From the NCBI GenBank assembly GCA_003566815.1, contig PXBT01000161.1, forward strand, positions 1 through 35,449: a stretch of 35,449 nt of DNA. Reading direction: 5' to 3'. The notes beneath the pieces were generated by a model, which was given only the letters and a program-made list of their open reading frames with translations, did not search any database and was not told the DNA's origin. Below are positions 26,045 through 35,029 of this stretch, piece after piece (position 1 is the first letter of the stretch; each line of letters opens with the position of its first letter). Made by a program: the position numbers and the translations under genes. This stretch comes from Caldisericota bacterium. Its GTDB lineage: Bacteria > Caldisericota > Caldisericia > UBA6126.

Positions 26045-29000
26045 TTAAGGAAGATATTCCCTGGATAAATAATACAGATCTTTGATGTCCACTATGCCGT
26101 CTCCATTGATGTCACATCGCAAATCAAAATTTTCATCCCCATAAGTTGAGCCAAAAGCTTTCTTCATCATAGCCCAATCATCTTCATCGACTTCACCGTC
26201 ATTATTTACATCGCCTCGGAGAAAATATCGATCATAAAGAAAACAAGTAAATCCAGGGCTTCGAAAAGTCAATAATTCTCCGCTTTCATCAAAAGCATAG
26301 AGCTTTGAAACCCTAATGCTGGATTCGCCCCTAAAAATTCCTTCAAAACCCATCTCCAACAAGCTGGTGCCCTTTGGAATAAAGATAGCCTCTTGATCTG
26401 GAGTTGACCAACTGGCATACATGATCCCCTTTGCATTGCTACCTATCCGATTTAGCTCCATGGAGCCACCTATCCATCGATTCATTGCGCGAGTATGAAT
26501 GGACTGGCAAGTCAGTTGTCCGGGCTGAAATCTGCATTCCATAATAAAATGGCTTATATTCAAATCCCTGTCAGCTTTAAGCTCTATGTTAAAGCGCTGG
26601 TTGACGAGATGTTTTCGATAGGCATGCCAATGAACATTGACAGGCTTATTGGGAGAGTTGACTATTTCAATGGGAAAAGTTTCTCTTGACTGAATCACAG
26701 AAAGGTTTCTGTCAATACCCCACATTCTTACCACTACAAAATATTCACCATCAGGAGGAGTCAAAGTGCGATCCATAAATAGCTCATTGAAATTCATTTG
26801 ATAATAGTCCGGAAACAATCCATTATGAGCAAAGATTTGCCCCCACTCCAATCCCTGTCGATCAATCACTGAGATATCCACTATTGCGTTATTTCGTATA
26901 AATTCTGCCCGTTCTGTTGCAATTCTGCTTCCTGATGAGATAAGAAAAGATATTTCAATGGGCCCATCATCAAACAAAGTTGGGATATCCCACCGCTCCG
27001 GGCTGACTTCAACATACTGGACAGGAGCATAAGAAACCTGGTAACCTGGAAAATCAATAACAAATGGTACCTTCAAGTCACCCACTTCAACCCAGCCCTC
27101 ATAATACTGGTTTTCAATTTTTTCAACATCCACCTTGAACTGTATCTCTATTTCGACAGAACCTCCTGAAGGCAACTCAACTCGATTCACTGAAGGTATA
27201 ACTTCAATTGGTGAAGCTTTAAAAGGAAGCTTATTGATCATATGCGCGGATACTTCCTTTGAAACCATTCTTTGTTGGGTATTGCTGATAAGAATGGATT
27301 GCTGAACATTTTGCCCTCGTGATTGCACATGCATGGAAAGAGGATAAATATGTGCAGGTGCTTGAAGTGCTCGATTCAGATTTACTTCGCCCGCTCCCTG
27401 CAAAAACCAGGAAAAAGGTTGATCGGTTAATGGATTTACGAGCCAGGTGGCAGTATGCATCAAAGCTGAAAAAACTTGATCCACGCTCCAATCGGGATGC
27501 GCTTCCATCAAGCAAGCTGCAGCGCCTGCAACAAAGCCAGCTGAAATAGAAGATCCCGACGCCCATTGGTAACCAAGACCAACAATCGAAAAAATATGCA
27601 AACCTGGAGCTATGAGATCGGGTTTTATCATAGCCTGGCGTATTGGCCCCGCTGAAGTCCAGATATCAGGTATCGAGGGATAGCGGGTGGAAAAATAAAA
27701 AGTCCAGTCTTGGAGATGATCCAGAGCAAATTTTATGTCCTCATATTGCACAATGCAGGAAGGAATAGTATTTTTATGCCAATCCCGATCATAGATCTCG
27801 GTATCCACTCTGGGATTTACATAGTCTGCTCCAGGATAATTTACAAAAATTACAGCTTTTGCGCCTGCATTCATAGCGTTTTTCATTTTTTCATGGAAGC
27901 TGATAGGGTTATCAACCGGGCCGCGATGCACCAAAGCTATAAAAGGATCTCCATTTTCAGCAGATGGCCCTGGAGAAACAAAATCTTCTCTTCTTCCATA
28001 AGATGCGCTCATGACAGGCAACTCTGACAAGCTGGTATCAAAAGGCTTGGAAGGCATGCCCAGGGGGGCACCAATAGATTGCCTGTGACCTTGATCATCC
28101 TCCAGCTCAATCCACTGTGTTCTTCGGTCGTTGCTGGCGCCTACAGTCAACACATCGGATGAAGCTCCTGGCAATCTGATTCTATCGACATTTCTTCTAG
28201 GCTGACCTTCATTGCCAGCAGCTGCAATCACAGCAATGCCTGATCGTCTCACCAAAGAAAGCGTATCAATCAAAGCATCATGCTCTCTGCTGGGATCAAA
28301 ACCCACCAACCCATTCAATGAGAGTACCACTATATCGCATTCATCTTTGATGGCTTGCTCCAGGGCGGGGAAAATTGACACCGACATGGCTCTGCCATAC
28401 TCAAAAACCACATACGATATAAATTCGACTTCCGGAGCCACTCCCTGGTGGAATCCATCCCATCCGGCTCCACCTATCACGCCAGCCACGAATGTACCAT
28501 GATACCCCTGGTCATCATAAGAGCGAGCAGGATTGGCAAAATTGGTGCCTCCAACCACTCGGCCTTTAAGCTCTGGATGTTCGGTCTGTATCCCTGTATC
28601 AATGATACCCACTCGCACTCCTTTGCCTGTGAAGGATTCTTGCTGTCGTTCTTTTGGTGAAGCAATATGGCGCACTGCAATCCCACGCGCTGGACTAAAA
28701 GACCCCTTCAAGGGGAAAACCGATTGTATATGGGGAGCTCTGGCAAGTCTGGGAATGTCGCTGGATCGCAGGGAAAGAATCATGCTGTTGCGAGCATGGG
28801 TCAACGCTTGCTTTTCAGTATATTCAATAAATTGCGAGGCCATCCAGGTCCTGAAGTGTTCCTGTATCTCTTCTATTTGATCAATATCTGCACCTTCCAG
28901 CACTGCATCGCCATAAAAATCAATCATAAAAGATCTTTCCTGATGAAGGGTAATATCAATCAACGGGTCTATTTTGGCATACTTCGAATAAATGTTGCCT

Positions 29001-29146
29001 GGAAGTAAATGTAAAATGCTAAAAAAACAAAGCAAAACTGCAACCAGCAATGCTCCTATTTTTTTTGATTGTTTTCCCTGCCATTTTTTCCGAAGATTTT
29101 GCATCATATCATCCTTTTTTAAAAATCTACTGTATATTGTATTCAA
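26045..29146 (-). CDS. Large secreted S8 (subtilisin) protease with PA-like insert, probable cohesin-like region and C-terminal dockerin
   Basis: Catalytic Asp VGIIDTGIQ, His YHGTFVAGVIGG, Ser GSSISAGFVAGAAACL; PA-like AVIFVNYPGADY; dockerin repeats GDVNNDGEVDEDDWAMMKKAF and CDINGDGIVDIKDLYYLSREY. Confidence 0.9.
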   Translation of the reverse strand: MNTIYSRFLKKDDMMQNLRKKWQGKQSKKIGALLVAVLLCFFSILHLLPGNIYSKYAKIDPLIDITLHQERSFMIDFYGDAVLEGADIDQIEEIQEHFRTWMASQFIEYTEKQALTHARNSMILSLRSSDIPRLARAPHIQSVFPLKGSFSPARGIAVRHIASPKERQQESFTGKGVRVGIIDTGIQTEHPELKGRVVGGTNFANPARSYDDQGYHGTFVAGVIGGAGWDGFHQGVAPEVEFISYVVFEYGRAMSVSIFPALEQAIKDECDIVVLSLNGLVGFDPSREHDALIDTLSLVRRSGIAVIAAAGNEGQPRRNVDRIRLPGASSDVLTVGASNDRRTQWIELEDDQGHRQSIGAPLGMPSKPFDTSLSELPVMSASYGRREDFVSPGPSAENGDPFIALVHRGPVDNPISFHEKMKNAMNAGAKAVIFVNYPGADYVNPRVDTEIYDRDWHKNTIPSCIVQYEDIKFALDHLQDWTFYFSTRYPSIPDIWTSAGPIRQAMIKPDLIAPGLHIFSIVGLGYQWASGSSISAGFVAGAAACLMEAHPDWSVDQVFSALMHTATWLVNPLTDQPFSWFLQGAGEVNLNRALQAPAHIYPLSMHVQSRGQNVQQSILISNTQQRMVSKEVSAHMINKLPFKASPIEVIPSVNRVELPSGGSVEIEIQFKVDVEKIENQYYEGWVEVGDLKVPFVIDFPGYQVSYAPVQYVEVSPERWDIPTLFDDGPIEISFLISSGSRIATERAEFIRNNAIVDISVIDRQGLEWGQIFAHNGLFPDYYQMNFNELFMDRTLTPPDGEYFVVVRMWGIDRNLSVIQSRETFPIEIVNSPNKPVNVHWHAYRKHLVNQRFNIELKADRDLNISHFIMECRFQPGQLTCQSIHTRAMNRWIGGSMELNRIGSNAKGIMYASWSTPDQEAIFIPKGTSLLEMGFEGIFRGESSIRVSKLYAFDESGELLTFRSPGFTCFLYDRYFLRGDVNNDGEVDEDDWAMMKKAFGSTYGDENFDLRCDINGDGIVDIKDLYYLSREYLP

Positions 29147-29293: not shown

Positions 29294-29426
29294 ACTATCA
29301 TATAATTGTTCCCGATTGCCTACCTTAAAGGAAAGCAGGCACATATCCAGGCTGAACATCTTCATAGCAAAGCTTTTTGGTTTTGACAACTGTTTTTCAT
29401 TATCTTAATTTCTGAAGGGAGTTTTT

Positions 29427-32400
29427 ATGAAACTTTTTCGCTGGTTCGTTGCTTTTTGTACACCTATGATGCACTGGACCGTCTGATCGAAGTGGAAGAT
29501 GCCCTCGAGCAAGCCACCAGCTTTACCTGGAATGTGCTTTCCCAGCCCTTGAGTATTGCTTACCCCACCCAGGAAAGCCTGAGCTATACCTATGATGCGC
29601 ATCAGCGGTTGAGCCAGCTATCCGCTTCTGACCAGCGAAGCATCAGCTTTACCTACGATGCCTATGATCGCTTGTCGCACCTGAGCCATTCGGCCACTGG
29701 CACCCATCAATTCAGCTATGATGCTCTGAACCGGGTCACCGCCGTCACTTCGCCTGCGCAAAAGGAGGCCACCTTTGACTATGATGCCGTCGGACGCTTG
29801 ATCGAAAGCACCTGGGAACAGGAAGTCACGCAGTTCACTTATGATGCCGCCAGTCGGCTGACAGCTATTGAAGCCCCGGGCAACCGCAGTTATGCGTTCA
29901 GCTATGATGCCGCTGACCGGCTTCTGAGCGAAGAGCTTCCCAGCACAGCGGAGGTCCATTACCTCTATGATGCCAATGACCGTATTACTGAACTCCTCTA
30001 TACCGCCCCCGCCATGGAGGAACAGGGTGCCTACGCCCCCCGAAAACCTTCACAGAACGAGGCGCAGGCAGCCTCAACAGAAGAGCAGTCAACCCTGGCG
30101 CGGAAAAAAATCTTTCTGGCTGCAGGGGAATATGCCCGTCTGCTCGTGCACTGGCACCTTCACCAGGCTCACCTTCACCGCCAGATCCAGGCCCAGGGAG
30201 GAAAACTCAAAGACCAGGCCTGGGTGACCCAGGTACGTCTCCTCAACTGGTGGCGCAAAGCCCTGCTGGATCCGGTAACCCTGGCTTCCTTCACTCCCCT
30301 GTGGGATGAAGGCGACCGCATCATCGAGGAAAACATCCATCTGGGGAATGCAAGCCATGACCGGTTTTACCAGTACGATGAGGATGATCAGTTACTGGTG
30401 GCCCAACTGCCCCACGCCACCTATACCTATACCTATGATGAGCGCTACAATCGCCTGACCCAGCGCATTGAAGCCACTACCACCGATACCACGGATGAAT
30501 ATACCTACAATGCTGCTGACCAGCTGACCCTGCGGGTACGCAAAGACACCACCACCCAAGCCACCCTTGAAGAAGAAAGCTTCAGCTACAATGCCGTGGG
30601 GGAAATGGTCTCCCGTACCTTAACGATAGGGCAAAACGCTGAGACCACCACCTATGCCTATGAAGTGGGAGGCAATCTGCACCAGGTGACCCTGCCGGAT
30701 CAAAGCGTTCACACCTATTCCTATGATGCGCTCGGGCAGAGAGTACGCAAGCAGACTCCCACGCTTGATATCCACTATCATTATCATCAGGGCGCCTGCA
30801 TCATGGAAGAGCATCGGGATCCCATCACTGAGCAGGTTATCCGTACGTTGCGCTACTACCCCTGGGGCATGAGCATCACGGAAGGCCAGACCACCACTTC
30901 CTATTACTTTATCAGTGATTACCGGGGCTGGGTCTGGGGCCTGACGGATGAAACGGGACTTTTGGTGGAAACTTACGACTATGACCCCTTTGGCAGATTG
31001 CTGCAGGGATCATTACTGCCCCACACCCGGTTTCTTTCCGGGATGCAGGGCGGGCAGTGGGATGCCGCCACGGGCCTGTATCATCTGGGCGCAAGGTATT
31101 ATGACCCAGCACTGGGACGCTTTCTGCAGGAGGATGCTCTCGAAGGATCCGCCAGCCTGCTGGCTTCCCAGAACCGCTATGTCTATTGCCAGAATGATCC
31201 AATTTCTTTAATTGACCCCACAGGCTATTCTCCCGAGAATACCGGTACCCCCTCCCGCTTTGGGCAGGGCAACCCCGCCAACTATTCCTCCTCCCAGCAT
31301 GCCTGCATCGTGAGCCCTCATGATGGGTTTAATCCCTCTTCAGGTTACTTTGATGGTGAATTAGCTGGGAAATCCCTGCCTGGCCTGAGCATGCCGGGAT
31401 GGGACGGGTGCTATGAGGTGGAGGAAATTACCGATGACAAAGACAGAGCTGATGGAGTGCGAAGATATCGTCTTACCATTAATGGAATAACGGTTATTGT
31501 ATTATGGGATGAAAGAACAGGAATTTTTCGTGCAGGCTATACGCATGATGATAACCCAACAGATGCAGAAAGGGGAATTGTAGCTGGACTGAATGCTGCT
31601 TTCAGGCAAATGAAAAAAGAAGGTTTCAGAATTCATTCTCCAACTGATGTAATGAATTTTCTTAGGGATATCGTTTCTTTTGCTGAAGATAACCTGGGAA
31701 CCTTTGCTTCAATTTTGGAAGGTTACGATACTTTTTGGACCTACTACCAATTCATGAAGCATGCTACGATCGGAGCAGTGATAGCAGACAATCTCGCCAA
31801 AGAAGATCACACTGAGCGGGGAGGTGATACAATCTATAAAGGTATTTATAATTTCTACAACGAAAAATTAATTGAAGAAGGTTTTGATCCAAGATACCCA
31901 AGAGGAAAAGTAGAAAATAACTTTAATTCCTATGACATGGAAATTGGTTTTTGGCTTAGCTTCTTCAATGAGCATTTAGGATTAGGTTTATCGATTTTTA
32001 GCGCTGGAACCAATGAATTAATAGGTTTGGTTGATTTGGGCAACATAGTGAAAGCAATGATAAAACAAGAATCTATGTTTGAAGGTACAGTAGGAAATCG
32101 TGCAAAAAGGCATCAAGTCAGAAGATCTGGACCAAACGATGCAATAGATGGCTGGGGATTAATGGCTGTTGGAAAACCACAAGTAAATGAATTAAACAAT
32201 ATGTTTAATTTAAACTTCAACGCATCATCCTTTGGGCCATCTTCAACAAATCCTTTCACCAACATTGGAGTAGGAATAGGACATCTAATGGTAAAAAGAC
32301 GTTATGCAATAGATGCAGGAGAAATGAATAGAAATGATAATTCACTTGAAAACTGGCTCATTGCAGTGATGCGCTATAATGGCTCAGGTGTTCAAGCAAA

Positions 32401-32452
32401 ACAGTACCGAGCAGTCGTAAGAGAAAGATTTCGCAGATACAGGGGGCCATAA
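29427..32452 (+). CDS. RHS/YD-repeat protein with C-terminal lytic-transglycosylase/lysozyme-like domain; 5' frame break
   Basis: YD repeats (YTYDALDRLIEV, YDAHQRL, YDAYDRL, YDAVGRL...), RHS core end YDPALGRFLQEDALEG...NRYVYCQNDPISLIDPTGYS. C-terminal SLT-like signature IKQESMF...GWGLMAVGKPQ...NPFTNIGVGIGHLMVKRRY...NWLIAVMRYNGSG. The continuous ORF begins at TTG 29456; ATG 29427 (SD gaaggga) is out of frame. Confidence 0.85.
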
Positions 32453-32456
32453 GAAG

Positions 32457-33818
32457 ATGATACGAAAAACAACATATAAAAGATTTATTCATTTCATAGG
32501 GATCGTATTTCTTTGCATCTTTTTTATTTCTGTTACTATGCGTATGCCTTTGGAAAGATTTTTTTCAGACCCTACTTCTCTCAAGAAGCAAGATCCTGCA
32601 ATAGTATTTTCCTATTCCTCGGAAAAAGTCTTTGATGATACTTCTCGAAACATAGTTATTGACCCAGCGGGTAATCGTAATTTTGATGGCAGAATGTTCT
32701 TTGGCAAAGATCGGATCTTGTTTAGCTTACACCAACAACAAAGTGATAGTTTGATTCACACGGATTATGAAGGAGATGATGAGCATATAGTTATTGACAG
32801 CAGAAGAACTGTCCTTTTTTCAAGAAGGGTAAACCTTTACGAAAATCAGATATTCTTTTCTCTTGGCTTTCCAAGAAAAAGCCCTGATCAAAACTCAATT
32901 ATAAAGCTTCCATTGAACTATACTGACGATGACCCTTCTCAAGGAGAATGGGAAGTGTTCCATGATATTGTTGCTACCCAATTTTTTATCCATGAGGGAT
33001 GGATGTATTATTCCAATCGTCAAGGTCTCTATAAAAAATCCATGGACTCGAATGAAAACTATCTTCTTGCGAAAGACTTTGCCTTTTCAATCAACCTGCT
33101 GGATGAGTGGCTATACTACATCCGCTCAACTGATATGCATGTAGTCAAAGTTCGTACCGATGGAAGCGACTATCAAAGCATCATGGAAAAAGAGACAAGC
33201 TATCTTACAGTTGATGATCAACACTTCTACTTTCTGGACGCTAATAACCACTTGTGTCGTAGCAACCATGAAGGGAAGGAAGTTAAGACAATTGTTGCTG
33301 AAGCTGTTAAAAGCTTCAATATCAGCGATCAATGGATCTATTACCAAAACAAGAATCAACCCTGGGATTTAATAAGAACACGCAAAAAAGGTACGGAATC
33401 GCAAAATATCTTGCTGAATGGTGGAGCTTTCCTTGATATTTTTACTGACGGAGATATTGCATATGTAATGGCTGCATTAGAAGAAACCAAGTATAGTGAT
33501 ACTAGTGATACTGGAATCTATCGAATAAGCGATGATGGAGCTATTGAGCTCTTTTATCCAAAACTAAGCTCTTTGGCTTCCTATGAAAAAGTCTCTATTG
33601 AAGAGATAAAAGAATCTTTTGAAATAGAGGCTGAATTTGAAAATACAAAGAAAGTGGTAGATGCTAATTTTGAAGATAAGGCCAAGCCTAAAGATGAAAC
33701 ATCTCCCCTGGCTGTGCTTTATTTTCTTGTCCCTGCATTGGGTATCCTTATCGTATTTGGTATCCTATGGGTGAAGAGAAGAAAGCAATTGAATGATAAG
33801 CAAAGTAAAGCAAAGTAA
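32457..33818 (+). CDS. Membrane-anchored DUF5050-like beta-propeller protein; candidate immunity partner of the RHS toxin
   Basis: N-terminal TM, repeated 'WxYYxN...LYK...DG' blades, C-terminal TM (LAVLYFLVPALGILIVFGILWVKRRK). Starts 4 nt after the RHS stop; SD-like aggggg lies within the last RHS codons. Confidence 0.75.
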   Translation: MIRKTTYKRFIHFIGIVFLCIFFISVTMRMPLERFFSDPTSLKKQDPAIVFSYSSEKVFDDTSRNIVIDPAGNRNFDGRMFFGKDRILFSLHQQQSDSLIHTDYEGDDEHIVIDSRRTVLFSRRVNLYENQIFFSLGFPRKSPDQNSIIKLPLNYTDDDPSQGEWEVFHDIVATQFFIHEGWMYYSNRQGLYKKSMDSNENYLLAKDFAFSINLLDEWLYYIRSTDMHVVKVRTDGSDYQSIMEKETSYLTVDDQHFYFLDANNHLCRSNHEGKEVKTIVAEAVKSFNISDQWIYYQNKNQPWDLIRTRKKGTESQNILLNGGAFLDIFTDGDIAYVMAALEETKYSDTSDTGIYRISDDGAIELFYPKLSSLASYEKVSIEEIKESFEIEAEFENTKKVVDANFEDKAKPKDETSPLAVLYFLVPALGILIVFGILWVKRRKQLNDKQSKAK

Positions 33819-33895: not shown

Positions 33896-35029
33896 CTAAA
33901 AAACAAAAGTCTCAAAATTATCCTGAGTGATGATTTCCACAGTGCTTCCAGGATATGATCTCAAAAATTGTACAGCTTTTGCCTTTCCTGCTCCAAGCTT
34001 CATCTCAAACCCTTTTAGCTCTCCGCCATACTCCTCGATTAGATCAATCTCCTGTTGTTCATAGGTGCGCCAAAAATAATAATTTTTATGGATTTGTCGA
34101 GACTGATCCCTTTTGATACGCTCCATGATCAAAAAATTTTCCCAAAGCCTGCCTTTGTCGTCTCGATATTTCAATTCGTTGAAATTTCTTACCAAAGCAT
34201 TACGAATGCCCAAATCATAAAAAAAGATTTTGCGACTTTTCATGATTTCATTGCGCTGGTTGCGACTGAATGCAGGAAGCCGAAAAATGATATAGCTTTT
34301 TTCAAGCAAATCAACATACCGAATAACTGTTTTTTGGTCTATGCCTACCATATTGGCTAGTTCAGTGTAGGAGACTTCCTGCCCCACTTGAAGCGCCAAA
34401 GCAGTAAGCAATCGTCGCATTTGTTCGTTGTTGCGAACCTGCCTAAGCTCCAGTATATCTCGATACAAATAGTCTCCCGTTAGTTCGATCAGGTAGTTTT
34501 GCAATTCATTCTCGTTCTTGAATTGAAGCGTCTTTGGATATAGCCCAAATCGTAAGTATTGAGATATATTGCTCTTGAGAGCAATCATTTGATCTTCATT
34601 ATATAGTTCTAATAATGCCAGAGGAAACATTAAAAAACTTTTTTTTCGTCCTGTTAAAGGCTCACTCAGTTGATTGACTAGTTCAAAGCTGGAAGAGCCA
34701 CTGACCAACAACTTGACACCTGGAATATAATCTATAATTAGTTTTAAGATTTGACCAATTTGATTTATTCTTTGAGCTTCATCCAGCACCAACAAGGAAT
34801 GCCCTCCTACTATTCTCTTTAATCGTTCAACATTGATTTCCTGGAACAAGTCAATAACTGCTGGGTCATCGCAAGCAAAAAACTGAGGTGAAAAATGATG
34901 TTGTTTTATAACTTGTTGAATCAAGGTGGTTTTGCCTACTTGTCTTGCCCCATACAACATCACAGCAGGATAAAGATCTGAGGCTAAAGCATCCATGATT
35001 TGTTTTTCCAAATATCGGTGAATCATCAT
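33896..35029 (-). CDS. AAA-family ATPase with DUF4143-type C-terminus
   Basis: Walker A LYGARQVGKTTLIQQVI; Walker B LLVLDEAQR; C-terminal FYDLGIRNALVRNF...GRLWENFLIMERIKR...FWRTYEQQEIDLIEEYGG. Confidence 0.9.
   Translation of the reverse strand: MMIHRYLEKQIMDALASDLYPAVMLYGARQVGKTTLIQQVIKQHHFSPQFFACDDPAVIDLFQEINVERLKRIVGGHSLLVLDEAQRINQIGQILKLIIDYIPGVKLLVSGSSSFELVNQLSEPLTGRKKSFLMFPLALLELYNEDQMIALKSNISQYLRFGLYPKTLQFKNENELQNYLIELTGDYLYRDILELRQVRNNEQMRRLLTALALQVGQEVSYTELANMVGIDQKTVIRYVDLLEKSYIIFRLPAFSRNQRNEIMKSRKIFFYDLGIRNALVRNFNELKYRDDKGRLWENFLIMERIKRDQSRQIHKNYYFWRTYEQQEIDLIEEYGGELKGFEMKLGAGKAKAVQFLRSYPGSTVEIITQDNFETFVF

Follow-up and report, generated by a model that had tools for sequence, protein, structure and literature searches.

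Lysozyme-like toxins are common in bacterial conflict, and the means by which the producer survives them is known for only a few structural types. The locus described here raises the question of whether a gene encoding an RHS/YD-repeat protein with a lysozyme-like C-terminus and the membrane-anchored beta-propeller gene located directly behind it constitute a toxin-immunity pair. It lies within a window of 35,449 nucleotides (positions 1 to 35,449 of contig PXBT01000161.1), being the whole stretch of DNA analysed, which belongs to a Caldisericota genome of 1.86 Mb in 220 contigs that is evidently metagenome-assembled. Based on the findings presented below, we consider it likely that this locus represents one cassette of a polymorphic RHS toxin-immunity system, in which an SLT/GH23 tip is accompanied by an anchored propeller as the predicted immunity protein.

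The rhs gene and its C-terminal tip

The RHS ORF (29456-32452, plus strand) is read from a TTG start and encodes 998 aa, with 998 codons uninterrupted by a stop. Its first part (29456-31228, plus strand) comprises an RHS/YD-repeat shell and an RHS-associated core ending in DPTGYS (RHS_repeat, E=3.6e-34; Rhs_assc_core, E=8.6e-20), so that the repeats and the core by which RHS polymorphic toxins are recognised in Pfam/NCBIfam are both present in the window protein. The 407 residues beyond DPTGYS (31228) form the tip, which begins with a variable linker and a helical pre-domain bearing a YQFMKHATIG motif (31229-31849, plus strand), the helices of which are modelled at high pLDDT. Residues H178 and G182 of the tip were invariant among the first 11 tips aligned. 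The remainder (31850-32449, plus strand) is the putative SLT/GH23 lysozyme-like toxin domain, as delineated by Pfam, alignment, HHalign and AlphaFold2/Foldseek, in which E872 (codon GAA, 32069-32071) is the candidate catalytic Glu.

The order of the motifs in the tip, E - GLM - NIGxGxG - YNG, agrees with that of SLT/GH23 domains. The Pfam SLT match of the window tip was sub-threshold (E 0.009-0.05; cut-off 21.3 bits) and the motif match could therefore, on its own, have been due to chance; several tips matched Pfam SLT independently, at E 0.0016-0.02, which is likewise below the curated cut-off. Searches of Pfam/NCBIfam with the tip alone returned sub-threshold matches or nothing, and a sequence search of the PDB with the tip or a tip profile returned nothing useful. 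In a profile-profile comparison by HHalign, using 18 genuine SLT domains from the same phylum as reference, all tips together matched SLT with a probability of 94.6% and a score of 46, and the window's family alone with a probability of 94.1%, while 60 column shuffles scored at most 4.6 against approximately 45 for the real profiles. The comparison paired ES with ES and YNG with YN. The tips of family f6 alone gave no match to the SLT profile, and it is therefore by resemblance to the f1 tips that they are counted as members. Across 21 aligned tips the only invariant positions are the candidate catalytic Glu and one Gly of NIGxGxG, the Glu being kept in tips whose identity to that of the window falls to 21-35%.

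The original prediction had proposed structural modelling of the tip, and this gave an AlphaFold2 model with a pTM of 0.76 and a pLDDT of 70. The most probable PDB match of this model in Foldseek was the GH23 chitinase domain 3w6b (probability 0.66; TM 0.51 on the target), with MltC, MltF and ostrich g-lysozyme ranking lower, while LT_GEWL and SLT proteins were the most probable matches in a viral library (probability 0.28). Although the expected fold families thus head both searches, none of the Foldseek E-values was significant, and the fold evidence is accordingly taken as supporting only. A second model, of the corresponding domain at another locus (A5, L051), was poor (pLDDT 53). The absence of a lysozyme-like domain from the C-terminus had been named in advance as a reason to abandon the prediction; the profile-profile comparison supports the presence of such a domain and, together with the invariant Glu, corroborates the lysozyme-like tip with Glu872. 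As judged from its sequence, the last ~200 residues of the RHS ORF appear to be a divergent SLT/GH23 lysozyme-like domain, for which peptidoglycan cleavage is predicted. Relatives of the tip were absent from the viral contigs, plasmids and phages searched.

The anchored partner gene in the window and in relatives

The candidate immunity gene (32457-33818, plus strand) begins 4 nt past the rhs stop and encodes a 453-aa DUF5050 beta-propeller protein (E=9.3e-27, 94.4 bits; cut-off 27), with a weak match to the solved seven-bladed propeller 3s25 and with N- and C-terminal transmembrane helices. Its probable ribosome-binding site AGGGGG (32441-32446, plus strand) lies within the last codons of the toxin, in the sequence AGGGGGCCATAAGAAGATG. 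The arrangement foreseen in the original prediction, namely an adjacent propeller with membrane segments at both ends and a Shine-Dalgarno sequence inside the toxin gene, was recovered. Since the outer flanks of both hydrophobic segments (residues 6-26 and approximately 418-441) are positively charged, the propeller should face outward. PADLOC reported nothing for the RHS or the propeller gene, and no counterpart of the propeller was found in the viral contigs searched.

The position of this gene is conserved in relatives. The tip family was first found in sister genera by a search of the order, and more members were obtained by profile search of the phylum, giving a sample of 22 pairs of tip and next gene, drawn from genomes of a single uncultured lineage, whose close relatives are labelled Caldisericia. 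In every pair (22 of 22) the next gene has the same direction and encodes a protein that is either a lipoprotein or anchored in the membrane and that bears a signal or anchor at its N-terminus, a lipobox being recognised by regular expression or by eye in approximately 18. The gap between tip and partner ranges from -13 to +36 nt, with a single one of 90 nt. Linkage to such a partner in other genomes, the second point on which the prediction had been open to refutation, was thus found throughout the sample, and chance adjacency of tip and partner was rejected on account of this recurrence.

On the basis of their own Pfam matches, or of homology to members that have such matches, the 22 partners comprise three DUF5050, five SBBP and nine PQQ/BamB-like proteins (some sub-threshold), one PdaC-domain lipoprotein and four proteins of no recognised fold. 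Within the window's own family at least 13 of 18 pairs have a propeller partner by Pfam or homology and, as propeller genes account for at most ~3% of genes in these genomes, this is far beyond chance (binomial P 1.2e-16, a generous value given that some pairs are related). The partner with the PdaC/DUF4163 domain, at locus L031, offers independent support for both halves of the lysozyme-immunity reading, since the extracellular part of RsiV has PdaC/DUF4163 as its N-terminal domain and RsiV inhibits lysozyme with loops that enter the active site of the enzyme; caution is warranted as not all DUF4163/DUF3298 proteins bind lysozyme (PMC5014341). At one locus (L054; G004:C43, 1516-3159) a transposase gene is located between the tip and its propeller-like partner.

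The 5′ end of the local rhs copy

The window's rhs gene is incomplete at its 5′ end. What appears to be the original start, with the Shine-Dalgarno sequence GAAGGGAG and an ATG opening MKLFRWFVAFC..., is found at 29427-29460 (plus strand), in a frame other than that of the RHS body. No ATG opens the RHS frame itself, the Shine-Dalgarno/ATG at 29427 belonging to the other one, and an export signal is absent in frame from the N-terminus of the window's RHS ORF. An apparent deletion or assembly junction falls between start and body, at approximately 29457-29460, and the 130 bases leading up to it (29330-29459) are 89% identical to a second contig of the same genome (G000:C159), where the matching rhs start runs on as a proper signal peptide, MKLFRWFVAFCCVVSLWITALPLSY, before the contig ends. 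This second start (G000:C159:45-173, minus strand; L105), which has an intact signal peptide and is 89% identical to the rhs promoter region of the window, lies near a reading frame resembling a DNA cytosine methyltransferase (FIDLFSGIGG). Signal peptides are present on those RHS proteins of the clade that have intact starts. Because the C159-like start and the RHS body are in different frames, the window gene has lost the part between signal peptide and repeats, by deletion or at an assembly junction, and it is possible that no secreted toxin is made from this copy. The toxin-immunity interpretation of this locus is supported for the lysozyme-like domain and for its linkage to the partner, but is weakened with respect to the truncated local rhs gene. 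A comparable break was seen at L092 (G045:C20, ~250-480), where the RHS signal-peptide frame and a 1905-aa body are likewise in different frames; this reflects a frameshift or an error of assembly, for which a short A run is the possible site.

It is a serious possibility, if somewhat short of an even chance, that the window copy is a non-functional relic which lost the 5′ part of rhs and whose tip and partner are in decay or have no role beyond that of a donor for recombination. Such a fate would be consistent with the out-of-frame signal-peptide start and the RHS frame devoid of an ATG, and also with a decayed copy of the partner's C-terminus elsewhere in the genome (G000:C99:6229-6357, minus strand), which corresponds to the last 43 residues of the propeller at 67% identity and contains stops. 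The 998 stop-free codons, the intact catalytic residues and a partner gene that is intact with its own Shine-Dalgarno sequence argue against decay; moreover, the junction may be an assembly artefact, and rhs systems normally include orphan tips. We regard the local copy as a probable orphan cassette or donor that has kept its immunity gene, the proposed function being that of the family. The relic reading is limited to the local copy and is compatible with a toxin-immunity explanation for the family as a whole.

Cassette exchange, alternative functions and known inhibitors

Within one genome, the DNA at the junction preceding different tips is 98-100% identical over 50-140 nt and then drops to approximately 25-30%, the level of unrelated sequence. 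The exchange of a C-terminal tip behind a conserved junction, a further mark of RHS polymorphic toxins, is therefore observed in the relatives, where RHS cores also recur after partner genes to give tandem cassettes. Rows of extra anchored proteins occur at L034 and L091; at the former (G002:C36, 2747-10357) one tip/partner pair is followed by at least four more anchored proteins, in part PQQ-like, which form a possible orphan immunity array. On the tip tree the partner classes interleave, a DUF5050 pair (G002C100) standing beside an SBBP pair (G002C112) with support of 100/99, and the number of partner-class changes is 9 against 11.8 expected upon shuffling (4 of 200 shuffles were as low). 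Tips and partners are exchanged as cassettes whose junctions are almost identical, and partners appear to be partly inherited together with their tips and partly swapped.

An alternative that we regard as unlikely is that the anchored propeller serves the RHS protein itself, as a chaperone, gate or surface anchor, rather than providing immunity to the tip. Partners of this kind also occur behind other RHS tips, which keeps this main rival alive and means that the association of the partner may extend beyond lysozyme tips: at L099 an RHS gene with a different tip, which is frame-shifted, is followed by a DUF5050 lipoprotein, and at L100 (G004:C48, 3081-8312) a lipoprotein without a recognised fold comes after a 1281-aa RHS protein that has a signal peptide and ends in a short Cys-rich tip. 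Propellers and RHS shells are also combined in Tc toxins and teneurins (PMC13018210), the TcB propeller gating the RHS cocoon. A core-binding accessory should, however, be conserved, and in one genome a near-identical RHS junction is followed by partners of unrelated sequence groups; it is this constancy of the junction while partners change that weakens the accessory role. In addition, the partner is found behind the tip in every case and for the most part moves together with it, and one partner is PdaC/RsiV-like rather than a propeller.

SLT/GH23 domains often serve in secretion and phage entry, and these genomes encode many DUF5050 and PQQ proteins away from RHS loci too, yet a housekeeping or delivery enzyme that loosens peptidoglycan for RHS passage under regulation by a scaffold-like propeller is very improbable, as the many divergent tips per genome, abrupt junctions and tandem cassettes follow the pattern of polymorphic toxins and the Glu is retained even in the most divergent tips.

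Under the favoured toxin-immunity explanation, a Sec-exported RHS shell would carry the exchangeable C-terminal tip, which would be released outside the cell, where its SLT-like domain would cut peptidoglycan at a glycosidic bond with Glu872 as the catalytic acid. The outward-facing, anchored DUF5050 propeller would bind the tip at the producer's own envelope and cover its active site, in the manner of the propeller-like inhibitors Tsi1, PliI and X-Tfi-XAC2610 (the last of these modelled; PMC3391265, PMC10933484). Related bacteria hold many such cassettes, keeping the lysozyme-like tip family with differing anchored extracytoplasmic partners, mostly propellers of three sequence types. There is perhaps an even chance that full-size, membrane-anchored propellers of at least three distinct types (DUF5050, SBBP and PQQ/BamB-like) have been recruited interchangeably against one RHS lysozyme-like tip family, such that a common scaffold fold rather than a conserved protein family would give immunity.

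Each element of the system has a precedent, be it the RHS toxin accompanied by an immunity gene, the toxin of lysozyme fold or the propeller-like inhibitor. The RHS/YD-repeat polymorphic toxins (Zhang et al. 2012, PMC3482391) and teneurin-like proteins (PMC13018210) resemble the present system in the RHS shell, conserved core end, exchangeable tip, directly downstream partner gene and tandem orphan cassettes; they differ in that the window tip is a divergent SLT/GH23 lysozyme-like domain and the usual partner here is a beta-propeller, a domain stated as not found among immunity proteins (PMC3482391). Partial or fragmented propellers do inhibit peptidoglycan hydrolases (PMC10933484, PMC3391265). 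In Xanthomonas citri the lysozyme-fold X-Tfe-XAC2609 is, like the target of PliI, blocked by an extracytoplasmic all-beta inhibitor of propeller topology, X-Tfi-XAC2610, but it is a T4SS effector and its inhibitor is small (PMC10933484); no sequence relation of X-Tfi-XAC2610 or PliI to the DUF5050, SBBP and PQQ proteins was seen. Tse1 of Pseudomonas aeruginosa is similarly neutralised in the periplasm by Tsi1, a fragmented propeller, although Tse1 is a T6SS amidase and Tsi1 a three-sheet partial propeller (PMC3391265). RsiV of Bacillus subtilis (DUF4163 and DUF3298) is membrane-tethered and shares PdaC/DUF4163 with the L031 partner, but is an anti-sigma factor and lysozyme receptor of another fold than the window's propeller (PMC5014341). 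PefE of Proteus mirabilis, also an immunity protein, is predicted to form a bladed propeller, one face of which bears the variable specificity regions; it belongs to a T6SS effector operon, its fold is predicted only, and no lysozyme-like effector was seen for it (PMC5714391). The statement in the original prediction that it knew of no described beta-propeller immunity protein holds for RHS-lysozyme tips only, as partial propellers and the predicted PefE precede it.

No description of full propellers from several sequence groups that act for a single toxin family was found in the literature searched, which contained few subscription papers. In this little-studied phylum an entire toxin family has propellers as its usual partners, besides one partner of the RsiV type; if the proposed function is correct, these would offer both a natural series for how one fold is re-tuned to block one enzyme family and a source of candidate new inhibitors of lysozymes and transglycosylases.

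The pair has further neighbours in the window. Convergent to the propeller gene is an AAA_14/DUF4143 ATPase gene (33896-35029, minus strand), a PADLOC candidate for PDC-S01 (E=1e-138), and similar ATPase genes are located near propeller or tip genes on G000:C104, G000:C172, G004:C82 and G004:C53. Divergent from the rhs gene, a subtilase with PA and dockerin-type domains is encoded at 26045-29146 (minus strand).
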